Under the pieces are notes generated by a model, which saw only the letters and a program-made list of their open reading frames with translations, did not search any database and was not told where the DNA came from. Shown here one piece after another: positions 6,340-63,948 of a DNA stretch of 64,000 nucleotides. The first letter of the stretch is position 1. Each line of letters starts with the position of its first letter. Position numbers and translations under genes: made by a program. This DNA comes from Rhizopus arrhizus (Eukaryota; Mucoromycota; Mucoromycetes; Mucorales; Rhizopodaceae), in the NCBI GenBank assembly GCA_024220505.1, contig JAKZZE010000017.1:930001-994000 (forward strand), written 5' to 3'.

Positions 6340-6649
6340 AATAAGCTTTTGTTTTGAAACAAACAAAAGAAAAAAGAAAGTGAATGATTCTTTTTCTTTT
6401 TATAGATAGTAATGTTTGAATGTCAGACGTTATTTCGCTTCTCGCCCAATCAATATGATTTTATTGTGCTTGCATAAAAAAGTATTTTTACAACAAGAGC
6501 GTGAATCACCTGAAAATAAAAATATTTGGCTGATAAATTCCGACAGAAACGTGAAGTCAAATAAGTTTCGGATTTGTCAACCCTCTAATGGTGGAAAGGC
6601 GAGGAAATGCAATATTTTGGAATTTTTTTTGTTTATTTTTATTTATAAA

Positions 6650-6947
6650 ATATAATAAGAGTCACACGTCTGAGATCGGCGTGAACCAAAGGAAGCAGAG
6701 TGTAAGCGATTAAACAAGCTAGTCAAGGTCGAGTCTGCCCCTTTTAAGGGTGGCAAACTATGACACAGTACTAGTGACCAGTTGTTTATCGATAAAAGGA
6801 AAGTCTTCAACAGTAAATCTCCAATAGGTACGCCAGATAACGGAGAGCACATAGCAGCTAAGAGTTCAGAGGATAGTGTTGTCAACAAAAGAAAACCGCT
6901 GAAAAGACCAGAGGAATGAGCATATATCATCTTGAGTGAAAGTGAGC
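6650..6947 (-). mobile_element. LINE (non-LTR retrotransposon) 3'-end fragment
   Basis: On the minus strand the sequence matches the 3' end of the LINE at about 53.83-54.15 kb. Shared features are the string CTCACTTTCACTC, the reading FSGFLLLTTLSS, SGVPI(G/E)DLLL, and the terminal stretch CGTGTGACTC(C/T)TATTATATTTTATAAATA followed by an A-rich tail (T-rich on the plus strand at 6610-6650). It is a strongly 5'-truncated copy of about 300 bp. No clear target-site duplication was seen. Confidence 0.8.
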
Positions 6948-11916: not shown

Positions 11917-12030
11917 TATAGAAAAAATTATAGATAAGCCTCTAGATTCTACAAATCAATTATATTTTATAAAAGACAAATGATTAAATTAATAGAAAGT
12001 TGCATATACACAAAAAGGAATAAAATTGAT

Positions 12031-13878
12031 TTAGCTTTTGGTAGAATTATAAAAATTAAGTACATTTCTACTAATTTTCCAAAAAAACTCCTTCACTCCT
12101 ATAACAATGCCATGCCCTGTAGGACCATTGACAGCTTGAAGAAAAGGCATTCCTCTAAGCACAATATAAGCATAATCTACAGCTCTATCAAAGTCTCCAG
12201 GATTATCAGGAATTAGAGCAGCAAATGGCTGGGCTTCATTATTATAGCTCGCTAAAGCCTGAGCGATCATTGGCTTAATGTCTATTTCAGGTGCAATTCT
12301 ACCATTCTCCATTGATATATTGTGCATCCTAAGCATATCTCGTACCAAGGTGCCTAACCGAGGCACGATCTGATCCCAGGCAACATCCTCTTCAAGCATA
12401 TCCACCAAGTCATCAATACGGCCGTTAGTGGCTACAGGATTGACTAGACGTTTTGTAACTTCAAGAATCATTTCCTCAAATTGTTCTCTAAACTTGCGAA
12501 TTTGAAGTACCTTGACCATCAAAGGTTGCTTGTACATGCCAGGAAACGTTCTGTAGTCACCTGTAATCATAGAATCTAAATTAGATACACTAAATCCTAA
12601 TGTCGAATCCAAATCTGCTGAAATATAAATGTAATTGTCAGCATCAGGATCTTTGAAGAGATAGAAGTTATGGGCATTGTTCAAGTAGCCATCAAAGTAA
12701 GCATTAAGTACCTCAAGTACCATAGCACGAAGATAAGTGTCCATGTTGATCTTTGAATTCCAAATATCAACTATATTCTTATCTTCTACAGGGGCATCTG
12801 CAATAAACCTGGTGAGTTTCTGAAGTGGAGCAAAATCGCCTTTTTTGCCCGCCTTCAATTCATACTGTCCATCGCCATAGGCAGTTAAATTTTTCATGTA
12901 TCCCAAATCAGAATCATGATGGGTTGAAGAGCGACCGTTGGCCTGATAGACATTACCACCATCATAGTCTTCATCACCATCTCCAAATTCGAGGGCTGTC
13001 CAAGGATCTTGGAAGGTTTCAATCAATCCAAAGAGACCGATCTCTTTGTCATTCAGGAAAACACGACAATAAGAGAATTCAGTAGAAGGAAGGCCAAGAG
13101 ATTTGATCATGTCATAGGCAAGTTGTTCACGCATGTAAGATGGATCATTAGCTAAAGATCTTAGCTTGATGCGCTTAAACCCGTATATCCTTTTATGTTT
13201 TTTCAATTTAATATTATAAGAAACTTTGGGCATCCACCGAGATTCATGACCAGCAATAGAAACTTCTACATTACGATAGAAAAGACTGTCAGTCAAAGAA
13301 ACATAGGACATGCTAGCAGTAATTTCAGTATTTTCAAAGTAGTTATTATGCATATTATCCAGATCTTGCTGATTAGCGATCAAGTGAATAGTAGGGATTT
13401 CGCCTTCTTTATGCAGTTTGGTAGGGATTCGTCTGATGATCGGTAATGGCTCATAGACTTGAGGAAATGGTGTGATCTGTTTCTTGTTCCATGTTCGATT
13501 AAAATATTCATTTACAGTGTCAGTTATTTCTGGTGGCCGATAAAATTCCTCAGCTGTGACATGGTGATTTTCTACATTGATCTTAACATATCTGTAGCTA
13601 TGTCGAGCTATGGGTGCTTTGCCGCTGTATAGTATGGTACTTGGTTGATCAAGTTGAAGGATGTGGACAGCGTTATCAATTTCAACCCCCATGAGCTGAG
13701 AGTCATTCAACAGGGCAATGACACTGTAAGTGATTTCTTCAACGAGATGTTTTCCTTCTACATTTACAAAAGCAGTAACAAGAACGAGGGCTGAGGGTAC
13801 GCAAGTTAATATATGAAAGCGTTTTGCTTTGTATAAAAGTGAAACATACTTACAAATAGAAAGCCAATTGATCAACAT
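12031..13878 (-). CDS. CotH-family spore-coat/surface protein (CotH kinase domain)
   Basis: A short first exon (13878-13854) joins after a 63-nt intron (13853-13791). The mature reading then starts with a short hydrophobic leader that looks like a secretion signal; read without splicing, this leader is lost. The body of about 590 residues shows the CotH-kinase layout: an N-terminal beta-rich region with glycosylation-type NRT and NDS sites, then YGFKRIKLRSLANDPSYMRE (lysine/arginine and DPSYMRE helix), then the MVLEVLNAYFDGYLNN segment, then ISADLDSTLGF (the acidic metal-binding motif). In Mucorales this family includes spore-coat and host-cell-binding surface proteins; not every member is an invasin. 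No hydrophobic C-terminal GPI-anchor signal is visible, so this copy may be secreted or otherwise attached. Paralogue number cannot be told from the window. Confidence 0.88.
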   Translation of the reverse strand: MLINWLSICKYVSLLYKAKRFHILTCVPSALVLVTAFVNVEGKHLVEEITYSVIALLNDSQLMGVEIDNAVHILQLDQPSTILYSGKAPIARHSYRYVKINVENHHVTAEEFYRPPEITDTVNEYFNRTWNKKQITPFPQVYEPLPIIRRIPTKLHKEGEIPTIHLIANQQDLDNMHNNYFENTEITASMSYVSLTDSLFYRNVEVSIAGHESRWMPKVSYNIKLKKHKRIYGFKRIKLRSLANDPSYMREQLAYDMIKSLGLPSTEFSYCRVFLNDKEIGLFGLIETFQDPWTALEFGDGDEDYDGGNVYQANGRSSTHHDSDLGYMKNLTAYGDGQYELKAGKKGDFAPLQKLTRFIADAPVEDKNIVDIWNSKINMDTYLRAMVLEVLNAYFDGYLNNAHNFYLFKDPDADNYIYISADLDSTLGFSVSNLDSMITGDYRTFPGMYKQPLMVKVLQIRKFREQFEEMILEVTKRLVNPVATNGRIDDLVDMLEEDVAWDQIVPRLGTLVRDMLRMHNISMENGRIAPEIDIKPMIAQALASYNNEAQPFAALIPDNPGDFDRAVDYAYIVLRGMPFLQAVNGPTGHGIVIGVKEFFWKISRNVLNFYNSTKS

Positions 13879-14838
13879 TGTTTTTCTGTAAAATGCAAAG
13901 AAAAGATTTTACATTTATTTATACATTTTTTAGGGGTTGCGTGTTTCAATGTAATAAAAATTTTAAAACTATCCAAATTTACTCAATTAAACTAAATTAG
14001 AAAAAAAAAAAGGGGGAGATTCCTGTCAATATATCAACATTCTGCCTCCAATCGTATAGACTTTTTTTTATTAAATTATTTTATATTCCTCGTCAAAATG
14101 AATAAATTATAAAGCACGAAATAGCATGGCACATATCTATTTATCAATTTATCAATTTGGTGGGTGATACTAAAGAAAATGTAAGAAAAACTAACAAAAA
14201 AAAAAGTATTCACAAACTTGGTGACCATACAGTTACAGTGATCAAGTAGCAAAAAATAACACATATTAAGAGCAGAAACTATTACCATAAGAAGTTGAAT
14301 CAATAGAAATAGTCTTTATAGATCGCTCTCTAAAAGCACAGAAAATTAATTTCTGCATAAAATAGACTAGTCTACTGTAAAATATTTCTTGCTTGAGCTG
14401 TTTCCTCAAAGTTCTATTCAAGCAATAACGAATAGTGAAAAGGTAGCTACAGAATTACGATAGATTTTGAATATGCGGTAAGCAATGCAAAATAATGAAA
14501 GGATAAAGTCTAATCAAGAGAGGCCAAGTTAGTGACCTGTAAAAGTCCAACAGCTTATAGAATATCTTAAAAGAATTGCTAGAATGGAGAGTGTTTAATC
14601 AAACATAAAATATCAACGGGGTTATCTGATACCAAAAATAGTGCAATCGATGGCACTACAGTTTTAAATTACAGACGATCGTTGAAATGGTCTAGTGCAA
14701 AATAGAAAAGGAGGGAACTATATCTCTGAAGAAGAGTAAGGTGCACACTTTCGGAGGAAAGAAGAGAAGATCTATAAGAAGCGTATAATAACAACCTACA
14801 CATAGTTTGAGAAAGAGTCTATAAAGCAATAACGAAGA
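13879..14838. other. Intergenic stretch between the CotH-family gene and the inverted repeat
   Basis: AT-rich, with several poly(A)/poly(T) tracts and no recognised gene. It holds the CotH-family promoter side and ends where the inverted-repeat left arm begins. Confidence 0.5.
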
Positions 14839-16250
14839 AAAGAAAAAGCATCACTACTTTCTCTAAGCTACTATTCTTTACTAATCTTTTGCTGCTATAA
14901 GAAAGACTCTTAATGGATAATTAATAATAACAATAGCAGTAATAACAATAATAATAGCAGTAATAATAACAATAATAATAATAACAATAATAATAATAAC
15001 AATAATAATAATAACAATAATAATCAAAGAAGACCAAAAAGGATTATAAACACAAAAAAGCCATTACATAGTAAATGGCTATCTTTTATTGTTTGAATAA
15101 GAGAAAGGAGAGTGAAAAAAAAAAAAAAGTGTAGTCATCACTCAGTTAGTTTTCCTTGTATTCAATTACAAAGAGATCGGAAGGATATGGGTTGGTTCTG
15201 TTGTTGTTCACACACAGCTTGCATCCGTCAAAGGTATTGTCGGCATGTGGACCAAAGCTATATCCAGGACCACTTTGCTTGATGTAGATGATCTTCTTAC
15301 TAGCGTCATAGGTCCATTGATACTTTTCATTGTGTTCATTTGCCTTTTGAACCAAGGTCTTGTGGTTGGAAGTGTTGGGATCCCTATCGATGTAGCCAAT
15401 AATTTTGCCGGTCTGAACATTGACTATTTGCTCCTTTTCATCATAGTACCAGACCTGCTTACTTTCCCAGTCATTGTCAACCTTCTTCTTCAATACAATG
15501 TAGGCATCGACGTCCATGCTGTTGTTTTCAACATCAACAACTAAACCACTTTGGTCGTGCTTCAAGTAAAAGTGCTTGTTCTTTTCCATGTTTAATATCT
15601 AATTAAGGTAGAGAAAGAAAGAAATAATGATAATGATGATGATAATAAGAATAATAAAAAAGAGATCGGTAAGTAAAGAGCTTTATTTTCCCTCCTTTCT
15701 TTTTCTTTTTTCTTTTTCTTGTTCAGTTTATTATACCAGAAACGTACAGATGAGATTTGAGAGTAAAGAAGCATGTTCGCACAAGATACTTGAGGGTTTA
15801 TATAGTTTTTCTTTTTTCTTTTTCTTTTTTCATTTTTTCCTTTTTTCCATGAACGGACCAAACAGTATGATGATTGTCGTATTGTTTGTGTCATATAAAC
15901 ATTTTAAGAGTTTATAAACAATTCACATATGTAAACCATACATTAACTAAATAGATGTTATTAATAGCAAAAAGAGTACCCTGATCAAACTTAAAGGCTT
16001 GATCTGACAAGAAAAGGAAAGGGCTTGTTATGCGATCTAAACGCTTACCCTTTACAGTCAAAATACTCAAGTAACAAATCTATGACAAGCATTCATATAC
16101 AAACTATTCAATATTTCCTCATCGTATACATGAATATATATATAGAGTATACGGCACTCTCTAAAGAGAAATAATATCTAACAGTAATAGCAACAATGAA
16201 AGATGATAATAATACACAAAGCACATAGCTTTCCCCTATGAGATAATGCC
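14839..16250. repeat. Left arm of a 1.4-kb inverted repeat
   Basis: The reverse complement of this segment matches the right arm (about 18300/18376-19787) almost base for base. The match covers the downstream TAA/CAA microsatellite, the whole lectin coding region, its 5' leader and promoter, and about 650 bp upstream. The outer edge is near the string AAAGTAGTGATGC; the inner edge is near CCCCTATGAGATAATGCC. Differences seen are a handful of single bases, small A-run changes and one indel of about 70 bp at the inner edge. The spacer of about 2.1 kb is not repeated. Confidence 0.93.
15146..15589 (-). CDS. Ricin-B-like beta-trefoil lectin, copy 1
   Basis: A single exon encodes 147 residues with no signal peptide or membrane segment, so the protein is probably cytosolic. 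The length equals one beta-trefoil. Repeated elements of R-type lectin folds are visible: HFYLKHDQSGLVVDV, a first aromatic motif KQVWYYD, a second motif KYQWTYD (compare QxW), and a final FVIEYKE strand. No enzymatic toxin domain is attached; this is only the carbohydrate-binding type of domain. A TATATAAA box lies at 15804-15797, about 210 bp before the ATG. The 3' side has AATAAA and a small hairpin (AGCCATT/AATGGCT stem). It differs from copy 2 by one amino acid (His86 here, Tyr86 there). The role is unknown; related fungal lectins are storage or defence proteins. Confidence 0.75.
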   Translation of the reverse strand: MEKNKHFYLKHDQSGLVVDVENNSMDVDAYIVLKKKVDNDWESKQVWYYDEKEQIVNVQTGKIIGYIDRDPNTSNHKTLVQKANEHNEKYQWTYDASKKIIYIKQSGPGYSFGPHADNTFDGCKLCVNNNRTNPYPSDLFVIEYKEN

Positions 16251-17034
16251 AAAAAAAAAAAAGAAAAAGAGTGCATTGTATGAATCATAACCATAAAAAC
16301 TATGATTAATATAATTTGATATTACTCTTTGCCTTTAAATTTTCGTACAGAATCACTTATAAAGATTAGATGTTTATGCAATGACCTTTACTAGGAATGA
16401 ATATTTCTGGATATAAATGAAAAGTGGCTAAAGAGACTGAACACATCAGCTCCAGTTAGTTTAAAATTTACTGATAGTCTTTTTTATGCTTTTATGTATT
16501 AAGGTTATGGGACTGAGTCTTTACAAAACTATAACAAGATACAAACTAGACTGAATCATGCTGGACCCTATTATTAGTCTTAAAAATGGCATAGTATACA
16601 TGATTTGTTTTGATAGGTGACCACATTTTTACACAATTTGAAGTTTTTTACGATACAACTAATAAAATTTCTCATTCATTTTGTCGCTTTCCATAGTTAG
16701 CAAAAAATGTTTCATCAACTAAGAATCTTGAGTATATTGAATACCTTGATGATTCTCTTATATTAAATAATTTCATTGTTATTTTTAACATATAAGGGAT
16801 TAATGTTCAAGTTATTATTTTTTTAAAACAATAAATCAAGTTTATTTTCGCAATAAGCATGTCTTTATCTCAGTCTACAGCATGTACAGCCAAGACAATG
16901 GTTACTATGGTCGATCACATATGATGAGTATGTTGTCAGTTATTGATATCCAATGGTAGCAGAAAGCGTTATATATAAATGCTTCTGGTTTGCGTTTAGA
17001 TTTTCTTGTGTTAAATATCATTGGAATTGAAACT
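16251..17034. other. Inverted-repeat spacer, left part
   Basis: Unique AT-rich sequence with no repeat partner and no recognised gene until the promoter at about 16950. Confidence 0.5.
16950..16980 (+). promoter_or_regulatory. CCAAT plus TATA promoter elements of the small ORF
   Basis: A CCAATGG element (16950-16956) is followed 14 bp later by TATATATAAAT (16970-16980). The ATG of the downstream small ORF lies 55 bp after the TATA box, so the expected transcription start would give a leader of about 25-30 nt. Confidence 0.45.
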
Positions 17035-17109
17035 ATGGGTCTACCTGTCTATAAGCCAAGATCTCCTCCTCCTCGTCCTCCTCGTCCCTATAGTCCACCG
17101 TCATCTTAG
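17035..17109 (+). CDS. 24-residue proline/arginine-rich micro-ORF in the repeat spacer
   Basis: ATG 17035 to TAG 17109 with no intron. Eleven of 24 residues are proline, with PRSPPPRPPRP in the middle and a Tyr-Ser-Pro-Pro end. Such a stretch resembles SH3 or WW-domain ligands. The gene has a CCAAT/TATA-type upstream region and an AATAAA at about 17195, 85 bp after the stop, so it looks like a complete tiny transcription unit. No signal peptide is present. No known family was recognised. It could be chance, since random AT-rich DNA rarely but sometimes gives such frames. Confidence 0.4.
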   Translation: MGLPVYKPRSPPPRPPRPYSPPSS

Positions 17110-18299
17110 CTAGATAAGTTTCAGCTTGTTAGACAATCAACGAATAGTCTGTTAATGTATTTTATATTTTAATGTACTATTATTGTTATTTGTTAATAAA
17201 GATATTTGAGCTATAAATAACAGCTAAATAAGAATAAGTGAAAGAAAAAGATAGTATAAGCTAAACAAGTTATGCTTAAGCTTCGTATACAAGCATAAAG
17301 GATTTTATACAATACTAAAAAGATATATAATTGGTGGCACTTCCGGCATTAGTAGATGTTACAACTATGCTTAAAACGTTCGTGTCAGTAAATACAAAAA
17401 CTTATACAAATTAAATATTTTTCAACTAGCTTGCTTCTAAATAAAAATATGCTTAATAGTTCCAAGAAAGAATAACAATACATGTGCTGCAATCACAGCT
17501 TTGCAAGATGAAAAACTCGATTTAATTTTTAAAATAATAGGCAGTACAAAAATATATTCGACCTAATAATGTATGATCCAGCAACGAAATGCAGAATTAC
17601 ATAAGAAATAGTACAGAAAATCAAGAAATACAAATAACTTGTTGACGTGTAAAAAGATGAATAACACTGCTTCATAATTATGGAAAAGAGTTTTGGTTTA
17701 CAAATGAAATTTGATTAAGATACAAAATCAATGGTTTCATTTAAGAGTACTCCATGTAATAGGCTCGAATAATACTAATGAACATCTCACAACATTTGTT
17801 TATTATCGCACTCATAGTAACTAAAGTTTTATTAGTTTTTAGCCTTGCCGCTTGTGTAGGTAGCTGTTATGTTTTTATTTATGTATACATGCTTTTCTTA
17901 TGAATATTTCCCACATTACTTATAAGCTTTATGCAAGTACCATCTATTTCAAATCAATACGTTAGTAAATACTCTTTGAATTGTAGCTAGTCGTAAGTTA
18001 CAATTAAAATCGATTTATGGAGCTTATAATTCAGGTCATTCAGATTTTAAAGCTTAATCATACATGATTTCTGTTTATAATGATCGATAGTTAAACAATT
18101 TTTCATCTCTTCAAGAACACAAAATTGCTAGAGTACTTGTTCCATGTCCTTGACGTATGGTAAGATACATTCATGTGAGGAAATAACATGGTATTACTAA
18201 ACATTCAGACGTAAAATATTATGCAGCTTTATATTACACAAAACGTAAATAAACGCCATTCTTATATACTTCCTCATTGGTCTTTACTGCCTTTTTTTT
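17110..18299. other. Inverted-repeat spacer, right part
   Basis: AT-rich, with no recognised gene, RNA or repeat. It contains a polyadenylation-type AATAAA at about 17195. Confidence 0.5.
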
Positions 18300-18816
18300 G
18301 GCATTATCTTATCAAATAAGCGATAAAGCCATGTGTAGATAAGATTATAAAATAACGTCAAGTATATCATTGATATATCTTATAGGGGAAAGCTATGTGC
18401 TTTGTGTATTATTATCATCTTTCATTGTTGCTATTACTGTTAGATATTATTTCTCTTTAGAGAGTGCCGTATACTCTATATATATATTCATGTATACGAT
18501 GAGGAAATATTGAATAGTTTGTATATGAATGCTTGTCATAGATTTGTTACTTGAGTATTTTGACTGTAAAGGGTAAGCGTTTAGATCGCATAACAAGCCC
18601 TTTCCTTTTCTTGTCAGATCAAGCCTTTAAGTTTGATCAGGGTACTCTTTTTGCTATTAATAACATCTATTTAGTTAATGTATGGTTTACATATGTGAAT
18701 TGTTTATAAACTCTTAAAATGTTTATATGACACAAACAATACGACAATCATCATACTGTTTGGTCCGTTCATGGAAAAAAGGAAAAAATGAAAAAAGAAA
18801 AAGAAAAAAGAAAAAC

Positions 18817-18824
18817 TATATAAA
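18817..18824 (+). promoter_or_regulatory. TATA box of lectin copy 2
   Basis: TATATAAA, mirrored exactly at 15804-15797 in the left arm. It is followed by a leader of about 200 nt with A/G-rich tracts before the ATG at 19032. Confidence 0.5.
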
Positions 18825-19031
18825 CCCTCAAGTATCTTGTGCGAACATGCTTCTTTACTCTCAAATCTCATCTGTACGTTTCTGGTATAATAAACTGAAC
18901 AAGAAAAAGAAAAAGAAAAAGAAAGGAGGGAAAATAAAGCTCTTTTACTTACCGATCTCTTTTTTATTATTCTTATTATCATCATCATTATCATTATTTC
19001 TTTCTTTCTCTACCTTAATTAGATATTAAAC

Positions 19032-19475
19032 ATGGAAAAGAACAAGCACTTTTACTTGAAGCACGACCAAAGTGGTTTAGTTGTTGATGTTGAAAACAAC
19101 AGCATGGACGTCGATGCCTACATTGTATTGAAGAAGAAGGTTGACAATGACTGGGAAAGTAAGCAGGTCTGGTACTATGATGAAAAGGAGCAAATAGTCA
19201 ATGTTCAGACCGGCAAAATTATTGGCTACATCGATAGGGATCCCAACACTTCCAACCACAAGACCTTGGTTCAAAAGGCAAATGAATACAATGAAAAGTA
19301 TCAATGGACCTATGACGCTAGTAAGAAGATCATCTACATCAAGCAAAGTGGTCCTGGATATAGCTTTGGTCCACATGCCGACAATACCTTTGACGGATGC
19401 AAGCTGTGTGTGAACAACAACAGAACCAACCCATATCCTTCCGATCTCTTTGTAATTGAATACAAGGAAAACTAA
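19032..19475 (+). CDS. Ricin-B-like beta-trefoil lectin, copy 2
   Basis: 147-residue intronless copy of the lectin at 15146-15589, in opposite orientation. One coding base difference was found by eye, changing His86 to Tyr (CAC to TAC). The same two aromatic QxW-like motifs are present. The two genes are transcribed away from each other with matched promoters and 3' ends. The near identity extends through non-coding sequence, so it reflects recent duplication or ongoing gene conversion, not protein-level selection alone. Confidence 0.75.
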   Translation: MEKNKHFYLKHDQSGLVVDVENNSMDVDAYIVLKKKVDNDWESKQVWYYDEKEQIVNVQTGKIIGYIDRDPNTSNHKTLVQKANEYNEKYQWTYDASKKIIYIKQSGPGYSFGPHADNTFDGCKLCVNNNRTNPYPSDLFVIEYKEN

Positions 19476-19530
19476 CTGAGTGATGACTACACTTTTTTTT
19501 TTTTTTCACTCTCCTTTCTCTTATTCAAAC

Positions 19531-19562
19531 AATAAAAGATAGCCATTTACTATGTAATGGCT
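19531..19562 (+). terminator. Polyadenylation signal and small hairpin after lectin copy 2
   Basis: AATAAA at 19531 is followed by a perfect 7-bp stem (AGCCATT/AATGGCT, 8-nt loop, 19541-19562) and a T-run. The same structure lies in mirror image at about 15060-15095 after copy 1. Confidence 0.45.
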
Positions 19563-19787
19563 TTTTTGTGTTTATAATCCTTTTTGGTCTTCTTTGATTA
19601 TTATTGTTATTATTATTATTGTTATTATTATTATTGTTATTATTATTATTGTTATTATTACTGCTATTATTATTGTTATTACTGCTATTGTTATTATTAA
19701 TTATCCATTAAGAGTCTTTCTTATAGCAGCAAAAGATTAGTAAAGAATAGTAGCTTAGAGAAAGTAGTGATGCCTTTTCTTTCTTTG

Positions 19788-20666
19788 GTGTATGCATTTG
19801 TTAGTTAACTTTCTAACGTTGATTTTTTCTAAAGATTGCAATTAAGGAAGGGATATAGTACAAGAGCTGAGTAAAGTTTTAATAAATATAACATTTATTT
19901 CTCGAAATAGCATTCAAGTGTACAATTAATCTATCATGGTTGCATCTCATTTACATGCACCGTTAAACAGAAATTCAAAGCACTCCAGTAGCTAGTACAT
20001 AGCAACTCAGATGACCTACCATAATTATTAATGCATGTCATGAGTGTTACCCAGCCTGTTAAAAGTGAGAGAAACTTTAATATTGTCTCTCTTTAAAAAA
20101 ATTGAAAGAGTAACAGTCTTTTCTCTCTCTCTCTCTCAGAATGAAGACAGCATTTATCAATTGATCCTTAGCCATGACTTTGTTCTTTGACATACTTTGT
20201 CCAGTATCATTCTATTAGCTTGAAAAAGCGAGGAAAAAATGACATTGAAGACGTTTTTTGTACTATTTTACTTTTAAAAACAAAACATCTTAAGCTTATC
20301 TTCTATTTTTGTTCCGATAATATATTCTTTTGATGTTTCCCCCACACACACTTTCTCTCAGTTGTTAAGTGCAATTATGTATTTTTAAACCTCTATGACA
20401 TTAATACATGAGGTAAAATAATTGCTCAAGCTGTTTGTTTGGGAGAAGAGCATTGAAAAAAATAGTCAGAGATTTAGAATATGAAATTAAACTACTTTCT
20501 TTGCCCACATGGTCAGTCATAACCTTCATTTGTGATACTAACCTGACCTTTATAATAAAGTTGAATTCTTCATGTCCCTTCTGAATAAGACTGTAGGCTA
20601 ATATGGATCAAAAAATTACGTCAATTTTTTTAGTTAACTTCCGCTGTTACCCGGGTATAATGAGCC
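19788..20666. other. Intergenic stretch upstream of the E2 gene
   Basis: Contains a CT-rich microsatellite (about 20121-20138) and no recognised gene. Confidence 0.5.
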
Positions 20667-20723: not shown

Positions 20724-22444
20724 ATGCAATATTCCCGCGCTACTTTTAGACTGCCTCGTGCCCTTGCATCAAAAAGCATCGCAGTAAATGTTGTGCGCAA
20801 CATTTCTCAAGTTAGAAACTTTCATGTTCAAGTTCCTGCATCTTTATATACTGTTGGTTATGACCGTTTAAAGTAAGATGTCAAAAAGTTAAGCAGAAGA
20901 AAAAGAAAAAACTAATCTTGACTATTATTAGACAAAATAATACTGTTTCAAGTGGCTTTTTTAAAAACCAAATAAGAACTTACGGTAGGACATTATTTAT
21001 TTTCCAAAGAAACAGTAAGCTAATCAACCTTTTTTTTTGTAGCTGACAAAGTGGTGCAGGTTCCCCAAATGGCCGAGTCCATCTCGGAAGGAACTCTCAA
21101 GCAATGGGTTAAGAGTAAGTATTAAGCATCAAATTATTAGAAAGAGCGAGAGAGAGTATGGCAGATATTTGTTTATCTTACCACAAAAAATTAGGCGTTG
21201 GTGATTTTGTGCATCAAGATGAAGAAGTGGCTACTATTGAAACAGATAAGATTGATGTTACTGTCAATTCTCCTGCTTCCGGTACCATTGTTGAAGTCTA
21301 TGCCAATGAAGAAGATAATGTTTCTGTTGGTGCCGACTTTTTCAAATTAGAGCTCGGTGATGCACCCAAGGAAGGTTTGTGTAGAAATGAATATGTCATT
21401 TGATATCAAATGATATTAAGATCAGCTTTATCATTATAGGTGCTGCTGCTCCCAAGAAGGAAGAGCCCAAGAAGGAAGAGCCCAAGAAGGAAGAGCCTAA
21501 GAAGGAGGAACCTAAAAAGGAAGAGCCCAAGAAGGAAGAGGTAAAGAGGGAAGAAACTCCTAAAGCTGCTGCTCCTAAGCCTGCTGCTGAATCGTCCAAG
21601 ACCGAGAAGGTTTACGGCAGCCGTAGCGAAACTCGTGTCAAGATGAATCGTATGCGTCTTAGAATCGCCGAACGTTTGAAGCAATCTCAAGATACCGCTG
21701 CTTCATTGACTACCTTTAATGAAATTGACATGACCAACTTGATGAGCCTTCGTGCTGATTATAAGGATGCTGTTTTAAAGAAGCATGGTGTCAAGTTTGG
21801 TTTCATGTCTGCTTTCGTCAAGGCCGCTGCTGTTGCCTTGGAAGAAATCCCTGCTGTCAATGCCTCCATTGATGGAAACGAAATTGTCTATCATGACTTT
21901 GTTGATATGAGTGTCGCTGTTTCTACTCCTAAAGGTTTAGTCACTCCTGTCTTGAGAAACGTGGAAGAAATGGGTTATCTCGATATTGAAAGAGGTATCG
22001 CTGAACTCGGTAAAAAGGTATGTATAAAGAGACTTTTATGGAATTGAGGTTTATAAAAGCGTTCTTTCTAATTCTTGTATTCATTAGGCCCGTGATAATA
22101 AGATTACTATTGAAGATATGGCTGGTGGTACCTTTACTGTTTCCAATGGTGGTATCTTTGGCTCATTAATGGGTACTCCTATTATCAACTTGCCTCAAAC
22201 TGCCATTTTAGGTATGCATGGCATTAAGGAAAGACCTATCGCTGTCAATGGACAAGTAAGCATAAAATCCTGAGATATATAACCACGTTGCTAATTTTTT
22301 TTCTTGCAGGTCGAAATCCGTCCTATGATGTATATCGCTCTTACTTATGATCACAGACTTGTTGATGGCCGTGAAGCTGTTACATTCTTAGTTAGAATTA
22401 AGGAGCTTGTCGAAGATCCTAGAAGACTTCTTTTAAATATTTAA
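20724..22444 (+). CDS. KGD2: Dihydrolipoamide succinyltransferase (E2 of 2-oxoglutarate dehydrogenase)
   Basis: Transfers the succinyl group to CoA in the mitochondrial 2-oxoglutarate dehydrogenase complex of the TCA cycle. The start is taken at ATG 20724, which opens a basic, Ser/Arg-rich presequence; an in-frame ATG at 20667 would add 19 hydrophobic residues. Exon 2 reads [16 protein letters not shown]. Exon 3 carries the lipoyl domain with the lipoylated lysine in [13 protein letters not shown] linker follows with a six-fold PKKEE tandem repeat (21451-21540). Next come the E1/E3-binding/catalytic core ([47 protein letters not shown]) and the active-site [11 protein letters not shown]. There are at least five introns, the last ending at the TTGCAG before 22310. 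The first intron donor was chosen as GTTATG near 20860 to keep the frame. The protein lacks the separate peripheral-subunit-binding domain, as usual for this E2. Confidence 0.95.
21451..21540 (+). repeat. Six-fold 15-bp tandem repeat in the E2 linker
   Basis: Units of CCCAAGAAGGAAGAG and close variants encode PKKEE six times. The run lies between the lipoyl and catalytic domains, where flexible charged or Pro-rich linkers are normal. Confidence 0.85.
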
Positions 22445-52362: not shown

Positions 52363-54172
52363 ACAAATGGAAGGCTATCCAATACCATGCACCTTTCCTT
52401 AAAGTTACTTGCCTATGCGGATGATGTATGTATCCTGTTGCATTCCACAGATGATTACTGTCGCCTACGCATCATTTAGACCGCTATGGGTCTGTATCTA
52501 ATGCTAAGGTTAATATCCACAAGACTAAAGCATTTTCTTTGGACGGACGCTCCTACCCAGAGTGAATTGCTTTTCTAGCAGCACAAGGTATTTCCAAATG
52601 GCACGATCATTCGTCACCTAGTCCACTTCGATATCTTGGCTTTCTCTTGATTCAGTCTTTTCATCAACGTCGTTATCTAGAACAACAGTTGTTACAGTAA
52701 AATCTCAATGTGCTATCTACTCTCAACGTAGACTTTCTATTAAAGGACGCGTTACCATAATGAATGCATTAATACTTTCTAAACTGTGGTATGTTCTGCG
52801 GATGGTTCATTTGCCGACAACCTTCTTTCGACGGTTCAATTCTGTGATTTATCAGTTTGTCTGGCATAACTGCAAACCTAAGATCAAGTACACGCAGTTG
52901 TGTTTAGATCCAAAGCTAGGTGAGTTAGGTCTTTTGGATCCACAAATTCAACGACACAACCTACAGATACGCTGGCTATGTCAATTCCTAGAAGACAGCC
53001 ACCCTCAGTCTTGTAGTCAACCTATATTGCTAGATCACATACGTCGTTTCCATTTAGGAAATACTGGAATAAGACTGGCTCTCTTTTTCCCTCTTTTGCG
53101 ATTACATCCTGCTGTCCACTCCAATAACTTTATGCAAAACATATATGAGGCGGTTGATTCTTTCGGATATGCAGGTACACAACAGACAAAGTGTACTCCT
53201 GCCACACTTCTCCGCTTGCCCCTATCTGCTATATTCGCTATGATTCCTACTGATTATTGGATCACTCGATCACGACACAAAAAACTCAAGGTGTCTCAAT
53301 TTTTTATGTATGATCACCACTTTGGATGTATACGACCTTTGTTGTCATCTGACCAGCCTTCCTCTCTTCATCTGGTTTCCAATTTAAGCCGAGATATCCA
53401 TAATCGTACCATCAAGCTAAATCAGCTTATCTGGCCTCATATATTGAATCAAAATCAACCATTGGATGAAGTAAATGATTCAGCGTTCATCGATGCCTTC
53501 TGTTCACAGCCCCAATGGATCAATTACAAACCTAAACCATTTCGGTTGTCTCTCATACAGCGTTTTCTACCATCATCGGCAATGTCACAAATACCAACTT
53601 CCAAGTGGTCACTTTTTTGGAAAATGCCTGTTTCGCCTGAAAGCCGGTCTTTATGGTATCGTCTATTCCATCGTAAACTCTATAGCCAATCACTTCTTTC
53701 AAGATTTGATAATGGTTTGACCTCTTTACAATGTAAATTTTGTTCTGCTAATACTGAAGACTTACAACACCTCTTCATGCGCTGTCCCAGGAAATGGAGA
53801 GTATGGCTGGATGCTTTCGACTTCTTTAGTCCACACCTCACTTTCACTCGAGATGATGTATGCTCAATCCTCTGATCTTTTCAGCGGTTTTCTTTTGTTG
53901 ACAACATTATCCTCTGGACTTTCAGCTGCTGTGTGCTTTCCATTGTCTGGCGTGCCCATTGAAGATTTGTTATTGACCGCTTTCCTTTTACCAATAAACA
54001 GTTGATCATTCGTGCTATGTCGCAGTTTGCCACCCTCAAAAGAGGCAGACTCGACCTTGATTAGCATGTTTCATCGCTTAAACTCTGTTTCTCTTGGTTC
54101 ACATCGTTCAGACGTGTGACTCCTATTATATTTTATAAATAAAAATAAAAGAAAAAAACAAATGGAAGGCTA
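52363..54172 (+). mobile_element. 5'-truncated LINE with 15-bp target-site duplication
   Basis: The string ACAAATGGAAGGCTA occurs at 52363-52377 and again at 54158-54172, bracketing the element; this is a target-site duplication. The body starts inside the RT domain just before the YADD motif (LKLLAYADDVCILLHSTDD, about 52395). It continues to a zinc-knuckle RT-associated (zf-RVT) region with CKFC ... LQHLFMRCPRKW near 53735-53800. It ends with TATTATATTTTATAAATA and an A-rich tail at about 54125-54157. The frame is broken by stops, but 52760-53875 stays open. The truncated RT cannot be functional. Confidence 0.85.
52760..53875 (+). pseudogene. LINE ORF2 C-terminal part (371 codons open)
   Basis: Longest open frame of the truncated LINE. 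It starts after the RT palm and includes thumb/connection-like MNALILSKLWYVLRMVHLP, IYQFVWHNCKPKIKY, and the C-terminal reverse-transcriptase zinc-binding domain (WSLFWKMPVSPESRSLWYRLFHRK; CKFCSANTEDLQHLFMRCPRKWRVWLDAF). It is a shadow of a full element, not an independent gene. Confidence 0.75.
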
Positions 54173-54211: not shown

Positions 54212-54600
54212 CAGGTGTACAAAAACTTTCTGAGACCCAATTGGCCTCTTTTTTTAGGCCCTTTTGATCGTTTTGGTAAAATGTTATTTAAATCTAAATG
54301 GGGATTCTGTTTTGACATTTTTCACACTGATTAACTGAACGTTGAATAATGCTTTGAAGGTGAACAATTGGCACTGCTTTACTGGCTTCAATTATTCTAA
54401 TAGTCAGGGTCTCTACGTCACTAAGTTTACCCCGCTTCACTTTTGCCTTAATGATGGCCCAAAATTGTTCGATTGGATTTAGTTCGGGCGAGTAAGGAGG
54501 AAGATACACTGGAGTGTAGCCTCGTTTCATGATTATGAGGTCAATCATTTCAGGAACATGGATTGGCGCACTGTCCATAATGATAAAATACCCTTTCATT
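54212..54600 (-). mobile_element. Tc1/mariner 3' half with terminal inverted repeat (left copy)
   Basis: On the minus strand, the DDE_3 part of a transposase: KGYFIIMDSAPIHVPEMIDL, RGYTPVYLPPYSPELNPIEQF (catalytic D and E motifs), then KRGKLSDVETLTIRIIEASKAVP and a C-terminal ending CEKCQNRIPI. Beyond the stop lies a probable terminal end (CAGGTGTACAAAAACTTTCTGAG on the plus strand at 54212). The 5' half of the gene is missing; sequence upstream of KGYF (up to 54737) is open but unrelated. Confidence 0.85.
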
Positions 54601-54749
54601 TCTGGGGAAATTAATGGATAGCTCTGTTCGTGATTTTTGAAGTGACTTTCTTCAGTAGAAGCGTATCTGCTGCTTGGATAAATTGTCTCTTTATTGACTA
54701 TTACACAAAGTCCATATATATCAGAATCAACAATCATATGCTATATACT

Positions 54750-58189: not shown

Positions 58190-58921
58190 AATAGTGTCCA
58201 AGACCGGGCGGATTGGGTTGAAAAGTGGGTTGAAAACGGCATGGATTATCTTAATAACTGTGTATTTGTGCATGAGTCAGGATTTGACATCAACATGCGT
58301 CGTAGTCGAGGTTGGTCACCATGCGGTTCACAGGCAACCACAACAACCTCTTCCACAAAAGCTACTTCACATAACGTTCTTGATGCAATTTCGGCAGCTG
58401 GTTTTGTTGTGAAGCTGAGAGAGTCTAGAAATATCAAGAGAAGGAAAGTAATAGGGGCTACAAAAAGAAAGGCACCCGAAGATCAATTGTCTGTTCCTAA
58501 GGGTACTACAGGCGAACACTATCTTCAGTTCATAAACGATACAATGGATATCGTGGATGAGTTCCCAAAAATTAAAGGGTATTTTATCATTATGGACAGT
58601 GCGCCAATCCATGTTCCTGAAATGATTGACCTCATAATCATGAAACGAGGCTACACTCCAGTGTATCTTCCTCCTTACTCGCCCGAACTAAATCCAATCG
58701 AACAATTTTGGGCCATCATTAAGGCAAAAGTGAAGCGGGGTAAACTTAGTGACGTAGAGACCCTGACTATTAGAATAATTGAAGCCAGTAAAGCAGTGCC
58801 AATTGTTCACCTTCAAAACATTATTCAACATTCAGTTAATCAGTGTGAAAAATGTCGACCAATTGGGTCTCATACAAATGGCCAATCGAAGTCCAATAAA
58901 ATTTTAAAATCCGGCCAATGA
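58190..58921 (+). mobile_element. Tc1/mariner transposase fragment (right copy, C-terminal two thirds)
   Basis: Open for 226 codons from 58241: NNCVFVHESGFDINMRRSRGW (first catalytic D), then KRRKVIGATKRKAPED, then KGYFIIMDSAPIHVPEMIDL (second D) and PPYSPELNPIEQFWAII (third, D/E). The last about 290 nt match the left copy at 54.3-54.6 kb almost base for base, in opposite orientation. After ...CEKC the right copy has lost about 65 bp compared with the left and then joins the terminal-end sequence CCAATTGGGTCTCA. The N-terminal helix-turn-helix part is missing, so it is non-autonomous. Confidence 0.85.
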
Positions 58922-62171: not shown

Positions 62172-63948
62172 TTAAGAATTCATAATTTCTCTATACTTTT
62201 TCTGATCCTCAAGCATGGCCAGGAACACTTTATAACGGCGTTCATTTAGTTTCTTTACTTCCTTATCATCATTTGGTAAAACTGTTGAACCAGATCTACC
62301 TAAACGAACCATGATTTCCCATAAGTCAGATGAAATTAAACCAGATGCCCTCACACCTAGAAAGGCAGCTCCAATTACTACTGCACCCTCAATGGACTCT
62401 GGCATGATAAGCCTGCATTGTGTGACATTTGCAATGATTTGCACAAATAAAGAGCTCTTGCAGAGGCCACCCGATATACACAGCGTGTCGATAGTATAGC
62501 CTTCTTTGTTGAGGGTCTCAATGATGTGTCTTGTCTGACAGGCAATCGCCTGGAGTGTAGCAAGATAGCGGAGGGCCAGATCATCTATACTTTGGTCCAA
62601 GGAAACTCCAACAATTGTTCCTCTCAAGGTAGGATCAGCCAAAGGGGAACGATTACCATGGAAATCGGGGTAGATGTGTAAATGTCTTGTTAAATCTTCA
62701 AGATGTTTCAGTTGACGCTGTGATTGGAGCATCTTGAGATGATCTGTCAAAAATGAGTAAATGTCAGTATTGCTAGCTAGCTCGCGTGCTTGATTGATGG
62801 CCGGATGTGTATTTAACATAAAGTCGATCAATTGCCCGGTAGATGATTGTCCACCCTCTGCATGCCACATATCAGGGACCATGACAGAACGGTAAGGACC
62901 CCAGATACCAGGTACAAAGATAGGATTTGGGGACATGGTAATATGACAACTGGATGTACCGCAGATCACTGCAAGTCGACTAGGCCCTTGAGCTTTTAAG
63001 CTTTGATCGAGTTGATTAAGCAATTCGCTTCTCTCTTTATCACCCGATGTGGCACCCAGAGTAGCCAAGGCACCAGCATATGCATCAATGATAGCTGAAC
63101 CTACCGGTGTACCCTCCAACAATCCTAAATCTCGAGCAGCCTCTGCATTAAGCCCGTGTCCGATTTGATCACCCGCTTGAGCAAGCTGATCAGATGTAGT
63201 CGCCCCCAAACGATGAAATCCTTCATCAATCAAGGATTCTAATCCAATGGCCTTAAAAAAACTAGGCTCCCATCCTTGTCCAACGAGTTTAGGCAAATAT
63301 GAGCATTTACAAGTGAGCGAGCACGTTGAACGCGTTGTTTCACCCGTAGCCTTGTAAGTCAAAAAATCGGGCAAATCCATCAAGTGTCCAATTGCATCCC
63401 ATTTGGATGAAGGCATGTTTTCCTTAAGCCACAATGTCTTTGGTATCTCCATTTCGGGACTGATTGTATTGCCTACATAGCGAAGAACTGGGTGATGCGT
63501 TGCATTGATACGATTCGCTTGATCAATAGCACGATGGTCAGCCCATAGGATCACGTTTCTCGAGTTTTCTTCAAATTGAGAAGTAAGGTCAACAGACATG
63601 GGTTGACCTTGTTTATCGAGAACGACGAGTGAGCAGGTTGCGTCAAAACCGATCCCCTTTATGTTTTCAGGTGAAAGATTACTTATTTGCATAATGTTGC
63701 AAACACATTTCGTGACACTAGCCCAGATGTTTTCTGAAGATTGCTCGTAAAAGTCATGCTTAGGATTATAAGTGATAATAGGCTGAATGTCAATGCATAA
63801 AAGCTTTCCTTGGCTATCAATAACAGCTGCGCGTACGGAGCTTATGAAGGCTTTTATTAATAAATTTTGTTTTCTACATGTATATTGAATTTAGTCCCTT
63901 TTACCCAGTTCCTACATCTACTCCAATAAAGTAATCATCTTTTGACAT
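62172..63948 (-). CDS. FGGY-family carbohydrate kinase (D-ribulokinase-like)
   Basis: Two exons (63948-63905 and 63840-62172) give 570 residues. The first exon MSKDDYFIGVDVGTG carries the FGGY phosphate-1 loop, completed after the intron by SVRAAVIDSQGK. Other family parts: IKGIGFDATCSLVVLD, NVILWADHRAIDQANRIN, LMDLPDFLTYKATGE, PVGSAIIDAYAGALATLG, LAVICGTSSCHITMSPNP, then CISGGLCKSSLFVQIIANVTQ (the adenosine site) and EGAVVIGAAFLG. It is closest to the ribulokinase/FGGY-domain protein subgroup (yeast YDR109C, human FGGY). It is convergent with the Mga2-like gene, 77 bp between the stops. Phosphorylates a sugar or polyol; D-ribulose is the likely substrate by family only. Confidence 0.9.

Follow-up and report, generated by a model that had tools for sequence, protein, structure and literature searches.

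Head-to-head inverted duplication of a ricin-B-like lectin gene in Rhizopus arrhizus, and similar near-identical gene pairs in the same genome

Introduction

Closely linked paralogs in mirror-image orientation are best exemplified by the palindromic Hsp70Aa/Hsp70Ab and Amy-p/Amy-d pairs of Drosophila, which undergo ectopic gene conversion and whose orientation may minimise changes in copy number (PMC3924832). Here we describe an arrangement of this kind in the fungus Rhizopus arrhizus, namely two copies (A and B) of a gene for a ricin-B-like lectin that stand head to head in a 64,000-nt stretch of DNA (positions 930,001 to 994,000 of contig JAKZZE010000017.1, assembly GCA_024220505.1; hereafter the window), and we compare it with a third, more distant copy (C) and with other pairs of the genome. 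As with Hsp70 and Amy, the paralogs are closely linked, protein-coding and in mirror image, and the linked copies resemble each other more than an outgroup copy. The genes and the kingdom differ from those of Drosophila, and one genome rather than several species is compared here. Unlike the melanogaster Amy pairs, whose homogenisation is reportedly confined to coding sequence (PMC3924832), the lectin genes are alike in their upstream and 3' sequence too, as are Amy3 and Amy4 of D. kikkawai in non-coding sequence, by conversion or duplication. Conversion-homogenised mirror-image paralogs are classic in Drosophila, and the candidates reported here occupy five places besides two lectin loci in one early-diverging fungal genome.

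Among fungi, three pairs of secreted aspartic protease genes in R. oryzae 99-880 were reported as nearly identical "tandem duplicates" (PMC2699053). The genome studied here likewise holds three equal-scoring aspartic protease pairs, all head-to-head inverted, whereas the available passages of PMC2699053 mention neither inversion nor conversion for these genes. The FLO5 homologs of Ashbya include a tandem inverted duplicate too, a fungal inverted paralog pair that is convergent where ours is divergent and whose genes are separated by internally repetitive sequence (PMC3737163). Tandem duplicates of Lichtheimia are treated in PMC4133162, whose main text never uses the word "orientation". Open-licence literature, judged by titles and the openings of abstracts among the papers listed, yielded no description of the present pattern in Mucorales. 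Inverted arms with arm-to-arm conversion also characterise willow sex-chromosome palindromes. Human Y palindromes undergo arm-to-arm gene conversion as well, and sex-chromosome palindromes lie in non-recombining regions and have larger arms than those described here.

Results

The head-to-head inverted lectin duplication is real (Table 1). BLASTN aligned the two arms in inverted orientation at 99.6% identity, an independent repeat search with ungapped extension recovered them as 14823-16245 and 18376-19798, 98% identical and 2130 nt apart, and their length and identity cannot be due to chance. A first-pass annotation, made from the sequence of the window, had described two near-identical inverted arms of about 1.4 kb around an unrepeated spacer of about 2.1 kb, a mirrored microsatellite, and lectins of 147 amino acids that differ at one residue, and all of this holds: the microsatellite lies inside the arms and is identical in both, and the two open reading frames (ORFs) differ at residue 86 only. 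In a global alignment of 1408 columns the arms differ by three substitutions and two 1-nt indels, and the promoter and 3' hairpin regions fall within the near-identical sequence. Past the inner arm end B has a 72-nt segment that is missing from A, and beyond it about 17 nt more align.

For comparison at genome scale we searched 50.26 Mb in 41 contigs, labelled C1-C41, in which the window is C9:930001-994000. A kinase near the far end of the window (62172-63692), with 84% identity to an R. microsporus protein and 99% to one of Rhizopus delemar, places the organism in the R. arrhizus/delemar complex and supports the Mucorales origin assumed in the first-pass annotation. The search with the spacer, which skips simple repeats and very common words, returned nothing beyond the spacer itself but for its end stretches, of 138 and 84 nt, which match copy C. 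A proline-rich micro-ORF of 24 codons is present in the spacer (17035-17109); the first-pass annotation, which saw the unit as a possible small locus, was right that the reading frame exists, and nothing found supports it as a gene. Outside the arms, the nearest ORFs of at least 100 amino acids (12031-13878 on the minus strand and 21643-22047 on the plus strand) are both directed away from the pair.

Table 1. Features of the lectin locus (positions in the window)
Feature	Position	Strand	Basis and remarks
CotH-type gene downstream of lectin A	12031-13878	-	PF08757, 129 bits
Arm A: original lectin gene with its upstream and 3' regions	14839-16245	-	BLASTN 99.6% to inverted 18376-19782; both flanks common with copy C
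TAA/TAACAA-type microsatellite	14922-15024; mirror 19597-19699		No difference between the arms; 51 nt shorter in copy C
Lectin gene A, 147 amino acids, His86	15146-15589	-	ORF; Pfam PF00652 28.2 bits, E 2.5e-6, just below the 29-bit cut-off
Inner edge of arm A: 72-nt deletion site relative to B and C	16240-16262		Three-way alignments; A-specific substitution at 16240, then about 17 homologous nt to a poly-A tract (poly-T in gene orientation)
Spacer, without ORFs of at least 80 amino acids	16263-18291		16263-16396 still matches copy C; for the remainder a second copy was not found in the genome
Arm B: inverted copy, including the 72 nt missing from A	18292-19782	+	Both ends at polypyrimidine tracts
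Lectin gene B, 147 amino acids, Tyr86 (B-specific change)	19032-19475	+	ORF; PF00652 26.4 bits; polarised with copy C

The direction of the duplication was read from copy C (C9:884939-885382), about 60 kb from A. A and C are homologous past both arm ends, window positions 11962-16396 corresponding to C9:888552-884060 with the CotH gene included, whereas the homology of B to A and C is limited to the arm plus the 72 nt. Because only A has both flanks in common with C, A is the original and B the later inverted copy; the comparison shows A, not B, in the ancestral context, with B placed about 2 kb upstream after the A/C duplication. A three-way alignment with 1366 gap-free core columns contains 44 differing sites, 38 of which unite A and B against C, while three unite B and C against A and three A and C against B; of these six sites private to A or B, three occupy the opening 3 nt of the alignment and are possibly non-homologous. 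The Tyr86 change is private to B, and the absence of the 72 nt, together with two substitutions near the arm ends, is private to A. By this polarity A is the copy that lost the 72 nt after the duplication, B and C having retained them. The lectin of C differs from that of A at seven coding positions, six of them amino-acid changing and one replacing a nearly invariant Trp, so that C may be decaying.

We searched the genome with nine Pfam families and chose pairs for measurement by near-equal bit scores, a rule fixed after part of the family searches and before the rest. Neighbours whose bit scores were the same or nearly so were mostly head-to-head inverted pairs, and the seven that we measured (two lectin, three aspartic protease, one polygalacturonase and one deacetylase) have arms 96.9-99.9% identical (Table 2). 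In all seven, 0.5-1.5 kb of arm separates the inner end from the coding part; in the five non-lectin pairs, "coding part" means the segment to which the Pfam profile aligned rather than an annotated gene.

Table 2. Head-to-head inverted pairs measured in the genome
Pair	Arm length (nt)	Arm identity	Spacer (nt)
C9 lectin	1407	99.6%	2130
C18 lectin	3196	99.9%	4563
C40 polygalacturonase	1592	99.7%	1988
C3 aspartic protease	2588	99.8%	2906
C37 aspartic protease	1751	99.7%	6472
C24 aspartic protease	at least 3711	98.6%	8862
C16 deacetylase	1500	96.9%	1511

The distribution of substitutions along the arms points to gene conversion, most strongly at the C16 and C24 pairs. All 11 substitutions between the C16 arms (1500 columns) lie outside columns 60-1396, four before and seven after, and all 26 between the C24 arms (3711 columns) lie outside columns 172-2376, 10 before and 16 after, the substitution-free tract of C24 spanning the coding stretch matched by the profile plus 1.2 kb of upstream sequence. 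Substitution-free runs as long as these were obtained in none of 20000 random placements. Because substitutions cluster towards the arm ends and 1.3-2.2 kb of interior has none, the signature of conversion is clear at both pairs. At C16, moreover, the interiors of the divergent copies Y and Z agree, and the sites at which the third copy X differs from them are the same for both. Conversion is likely at C18, whose inner arms (99.9%) carry four substitutions, all at most 17 nt from an end, and whose outer arm pairs are 98.8, 90.3 and 93.1% alike. In the C3 and C37 arms every substitution is at most 13 nt from an end, and the C40 arms have none, with one or two small indels in each of the three; at C9, one substitution is interior and the other two are no more than 10 nt from an arm end. 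For C9, C3, C37 and C40 conversion is only inferred.

Of ten measured pairs (at least 95% identical, within 30 kb), eight are divergent, two direct and none convergent. That all near-identical neighbours are divergent is ruled out by the two direct cases, a P450 pair (C28:71513-73000 and 95201-96688; 99.5% over the 1488 nt compared, 24 kb apart) and two lectin regions (C18:542846 and 562500; 96.2% over 1199 nt). A further exception with near-equal scores lies among the deacetylases X(+), Y(-) and Z(+) of C16:200260-209850, where X is 90.7% identical to Z in direct orientation and 93.5% identical to Y in convergent orientation. Genome searches with subtilase and GH18 gave no near-identical neighbours, and the MFS search scored 9 of 237 candidates and is hence uninformative. 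Several neighbours whose bit scores lie more than 1 apart, and whose DNA was not measured, stand outside the tally: CotH on C1 and deacetylases on C20 (convergent), deacetylases on C1 (divergent), GH28 on C4, Asp on C41 and P450 on C25 (direct), and P450 on C34 (mixed).

The second lectin pair is surrounded by a large interrupted palindrome (C18:548185-579488) whose identity is lower outward. Its outer arms are broken by long unmatched ORF-bearing stretches, two of them retrotransposon-like by eye.

The lectin itself has ten matches in the genome (A, B, C, one on C11, four close ones on C18, one on C18 with stops and a weak one on C25). Protein searches yielded 6 and 11 relatives; the closest outside proteins are 95% and 88% identical over the full length, and those that carry an organism name come from R. 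arrhizus (64% over the full length, and 92% for a fragment spanning 54%), R. microsporus (41%, with 80% coverage) and Basidiobolus (53%, with 62% coverage). A search of a plasmid collection with the lectin protein gave no match. Whereas A and B score below the PF00652 cut-off (Table 1), the four C18 paralogs reach 28.9-30.6 bits, roughly at the cut-off or above it, and all 12 members of the lectin alignment match both PF00652 and PF14200 at E <= 0.01. The best match in PDB is weak (E 0.0034), and an AlphaFold model from 12 sequences has a mean predicted local distance difference test score (pLDDT) of 38.2, too low to use for the fold. Repeated QxW motifs are typical of ricin-B-type lectins; A, B and C have a single one, at residue 45.

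Inspection of the lectin by eye shows no apparent signal peptide. In this, and in being small and ricin-B-like, it is like the fungal cytoplasmic defence lectins known from mushrooms, which include beta-trefoil lectins such as CNL, at the level of family resemblance only. It also recalls mucoricin of R. delemar, from the same genus complex, of similar size (17 kDa) and with similarity to ricin-B-type lectins, according to PMC9227437. In a comparison by motifs, not whole sequence, the two five-residue motifs named there are, unlike in mucoricin, missing from all 13 lectins checked, A and B included (the C11, C25 and broken C18 copies lay outside this check). Each lectin gene retains an open frame along with its upstream and 3' sequence, so both are likely to be active, and the pair, as two near-identical and fully equipped genes, probably raises the dosage of a cytosolic lectin.

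The homology between A and C is itself mosaic. In steps of 150 columns, identity is 93.8-100% around the lectin and 85.8 and 93.2% in two intergenic steps; in the CotH gene it stands at 87-90% over the 5' part, and beyond window position 13365 it drops sharply, to about 60-82%. The break lies inside one reading frame, with third positions going from 14.8% to 45.7% different and first and second positions from 9.5% to 24.4%, and none of 500 permutations matched it. We read it as a probable boundary of recombination or conversion rather than of altered constraint alone. The CotH copy near C (C9:886632-888482) has two in-frame stops in the part matching the N-terminus of A's CotH.

Discussion

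The A/B pair is a real inverted duplication of a known kind, formed by an ordinary mechanism; the set of head-to-head near-identical pairs of this genome to which it belongs was not found described in the literature searched. In the account that we consider probable, an older lectin-CotH segment would have existed in two places 60 kb apart, giving A and C; lectin A with its upstream and 3' regions would then have been copied, inverted, to a site about 2 kb upstream, producing the head-to-head pair; and gene conversion between the inverted copies would have homogenised the arms, as in similar pairs of this genome, with a raised dosage of cytosolic lectin as the presumable outcome. Taken together, the two first-pass suggestions of "recent duplication or ongoing gene conversion" stand: that A was duplicated, inverted, into B follows from the third copy, and conversion is well supported at other pairs of this class, though unproved here.

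Several observations weigh against this account. The C9 arms have three substitutions, one of them interior, which recent duplication without conversion explains equally well; substitutions at most 20 nt from an arm end (those of C3, C18 and C37, and two of the three in C9) are possibly products of chance alignment extension; and 1-nt indels lie inside the C16 tract (at 1364) and the C24 tract (at 203), with two small ones each in C9, C40 and C3. The outer end of the C24 arm lies past the stretch analysed. Copy C keeps its 38 differences from A and B, and conversion across 60 kb would therefore be at most occasional.

The closest rival is a plain recent inverted duplication in which near-identity would reflect youth and conversion would play no part. 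It overlaps with the preferred account, so that the weights given to the two do not add up, and we regard it as possible though clearly the less probable: three substitutions in 1408 columns, the sharp ends of B's homology and the few private changes in A and B would all fit, yet several unrelated pairs of the same architecture would then all need to be young, and the arm ends of C16 and C24 look older than their interiors. An artefact of assembly or polishing, either a false inverted copy or real copies made identical by misplaced reads, seems improbable. Misplaced short reads could also leave identical interiors with differing ends, and the locus is known from the assembly alone; against this stand the distinct flanks, the spacer found once, and the 72-nt and coding differences between the arms. 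An assembly or haplotype artefact at this locus is unlikely, given that A and B have different flanks and that both carry private changes. The three equal-scoring aspartic protease pairs tell against it as well, near-identical pairs being reported in PMC2699053 for R. oryzae 99-880, maybe another strain.

That the 1.5-kb unit is a mobile element or its cargo is suggested by a copy that is discrete and sharply bounded, with a polypyrimidine tract at either end; we think this very improbable, given that terminal inverted repeats or a clear target duplication were not seen by eye at the junctions, that the junctions of six inspected pairs have no evident common motif, and that A and C are homologous beyond the unit. 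Just as remote, in our estimate, is a locus for RNA interference (RNAi), its inverted arms yielding double-stranded RNA or a cruciform. The arms are long and near-identical, and Mucorales possess RNAi, with RNAi knockdown in R. delemar described in PMC9227437. On the other side, the genes are divergent, so their own transcripts cannot pair with one another, and the 2.1-kb spacer makes cruciform extrusion unlikely. Overlapping antisense RNA, raised in the first-pass annotation together with the cruciform, does not follow from the arrangement either: both genes are transcribed outward, which gives mRNAs of one sense with no overlap between them. Because the nearest outer ORFs also point outward, antisense RNA would need another transcript through the unit.

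A more speculative idea, to which we give little credence, concerns the orientations in the tally. Orientation might act as a filter on young gene duplicates, with direct copies lost by recombination, convergent ones silenced or selected against via RNAi, and divergent ones persisting, kept identical through conversion with their upstream regions included. If true, identical head-to-head pairs would be a genome-wide gene-dosage architecture of RNAi-proficient Mucorales. A divergent bias, if genome-wide, would link the orientation of duplicates to RNAi and could be compared between fungi with and without RNAi.

Additional observations

Repeat pairs of at least 200 nt and at least 88% identity were also sought in the 64-kb window and in 60 kb of other blocks (one of 20 kb and four of 10 kb, picked for lectin matches and hence non-random), with one further pair found, which is transposase-like. 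In the window, a 293-nt inverted repeat (54314-54606 and 58564-58856, 98.6%) lies within two ORFs that resemble a DDE transposase by eye, and a 324-nt inverted repeat (6623-6946 and 53837-54158, 85%) has its second copy overlapping the end of an ORF that resembles, again by eye, a reverse-transcriptase fragment.

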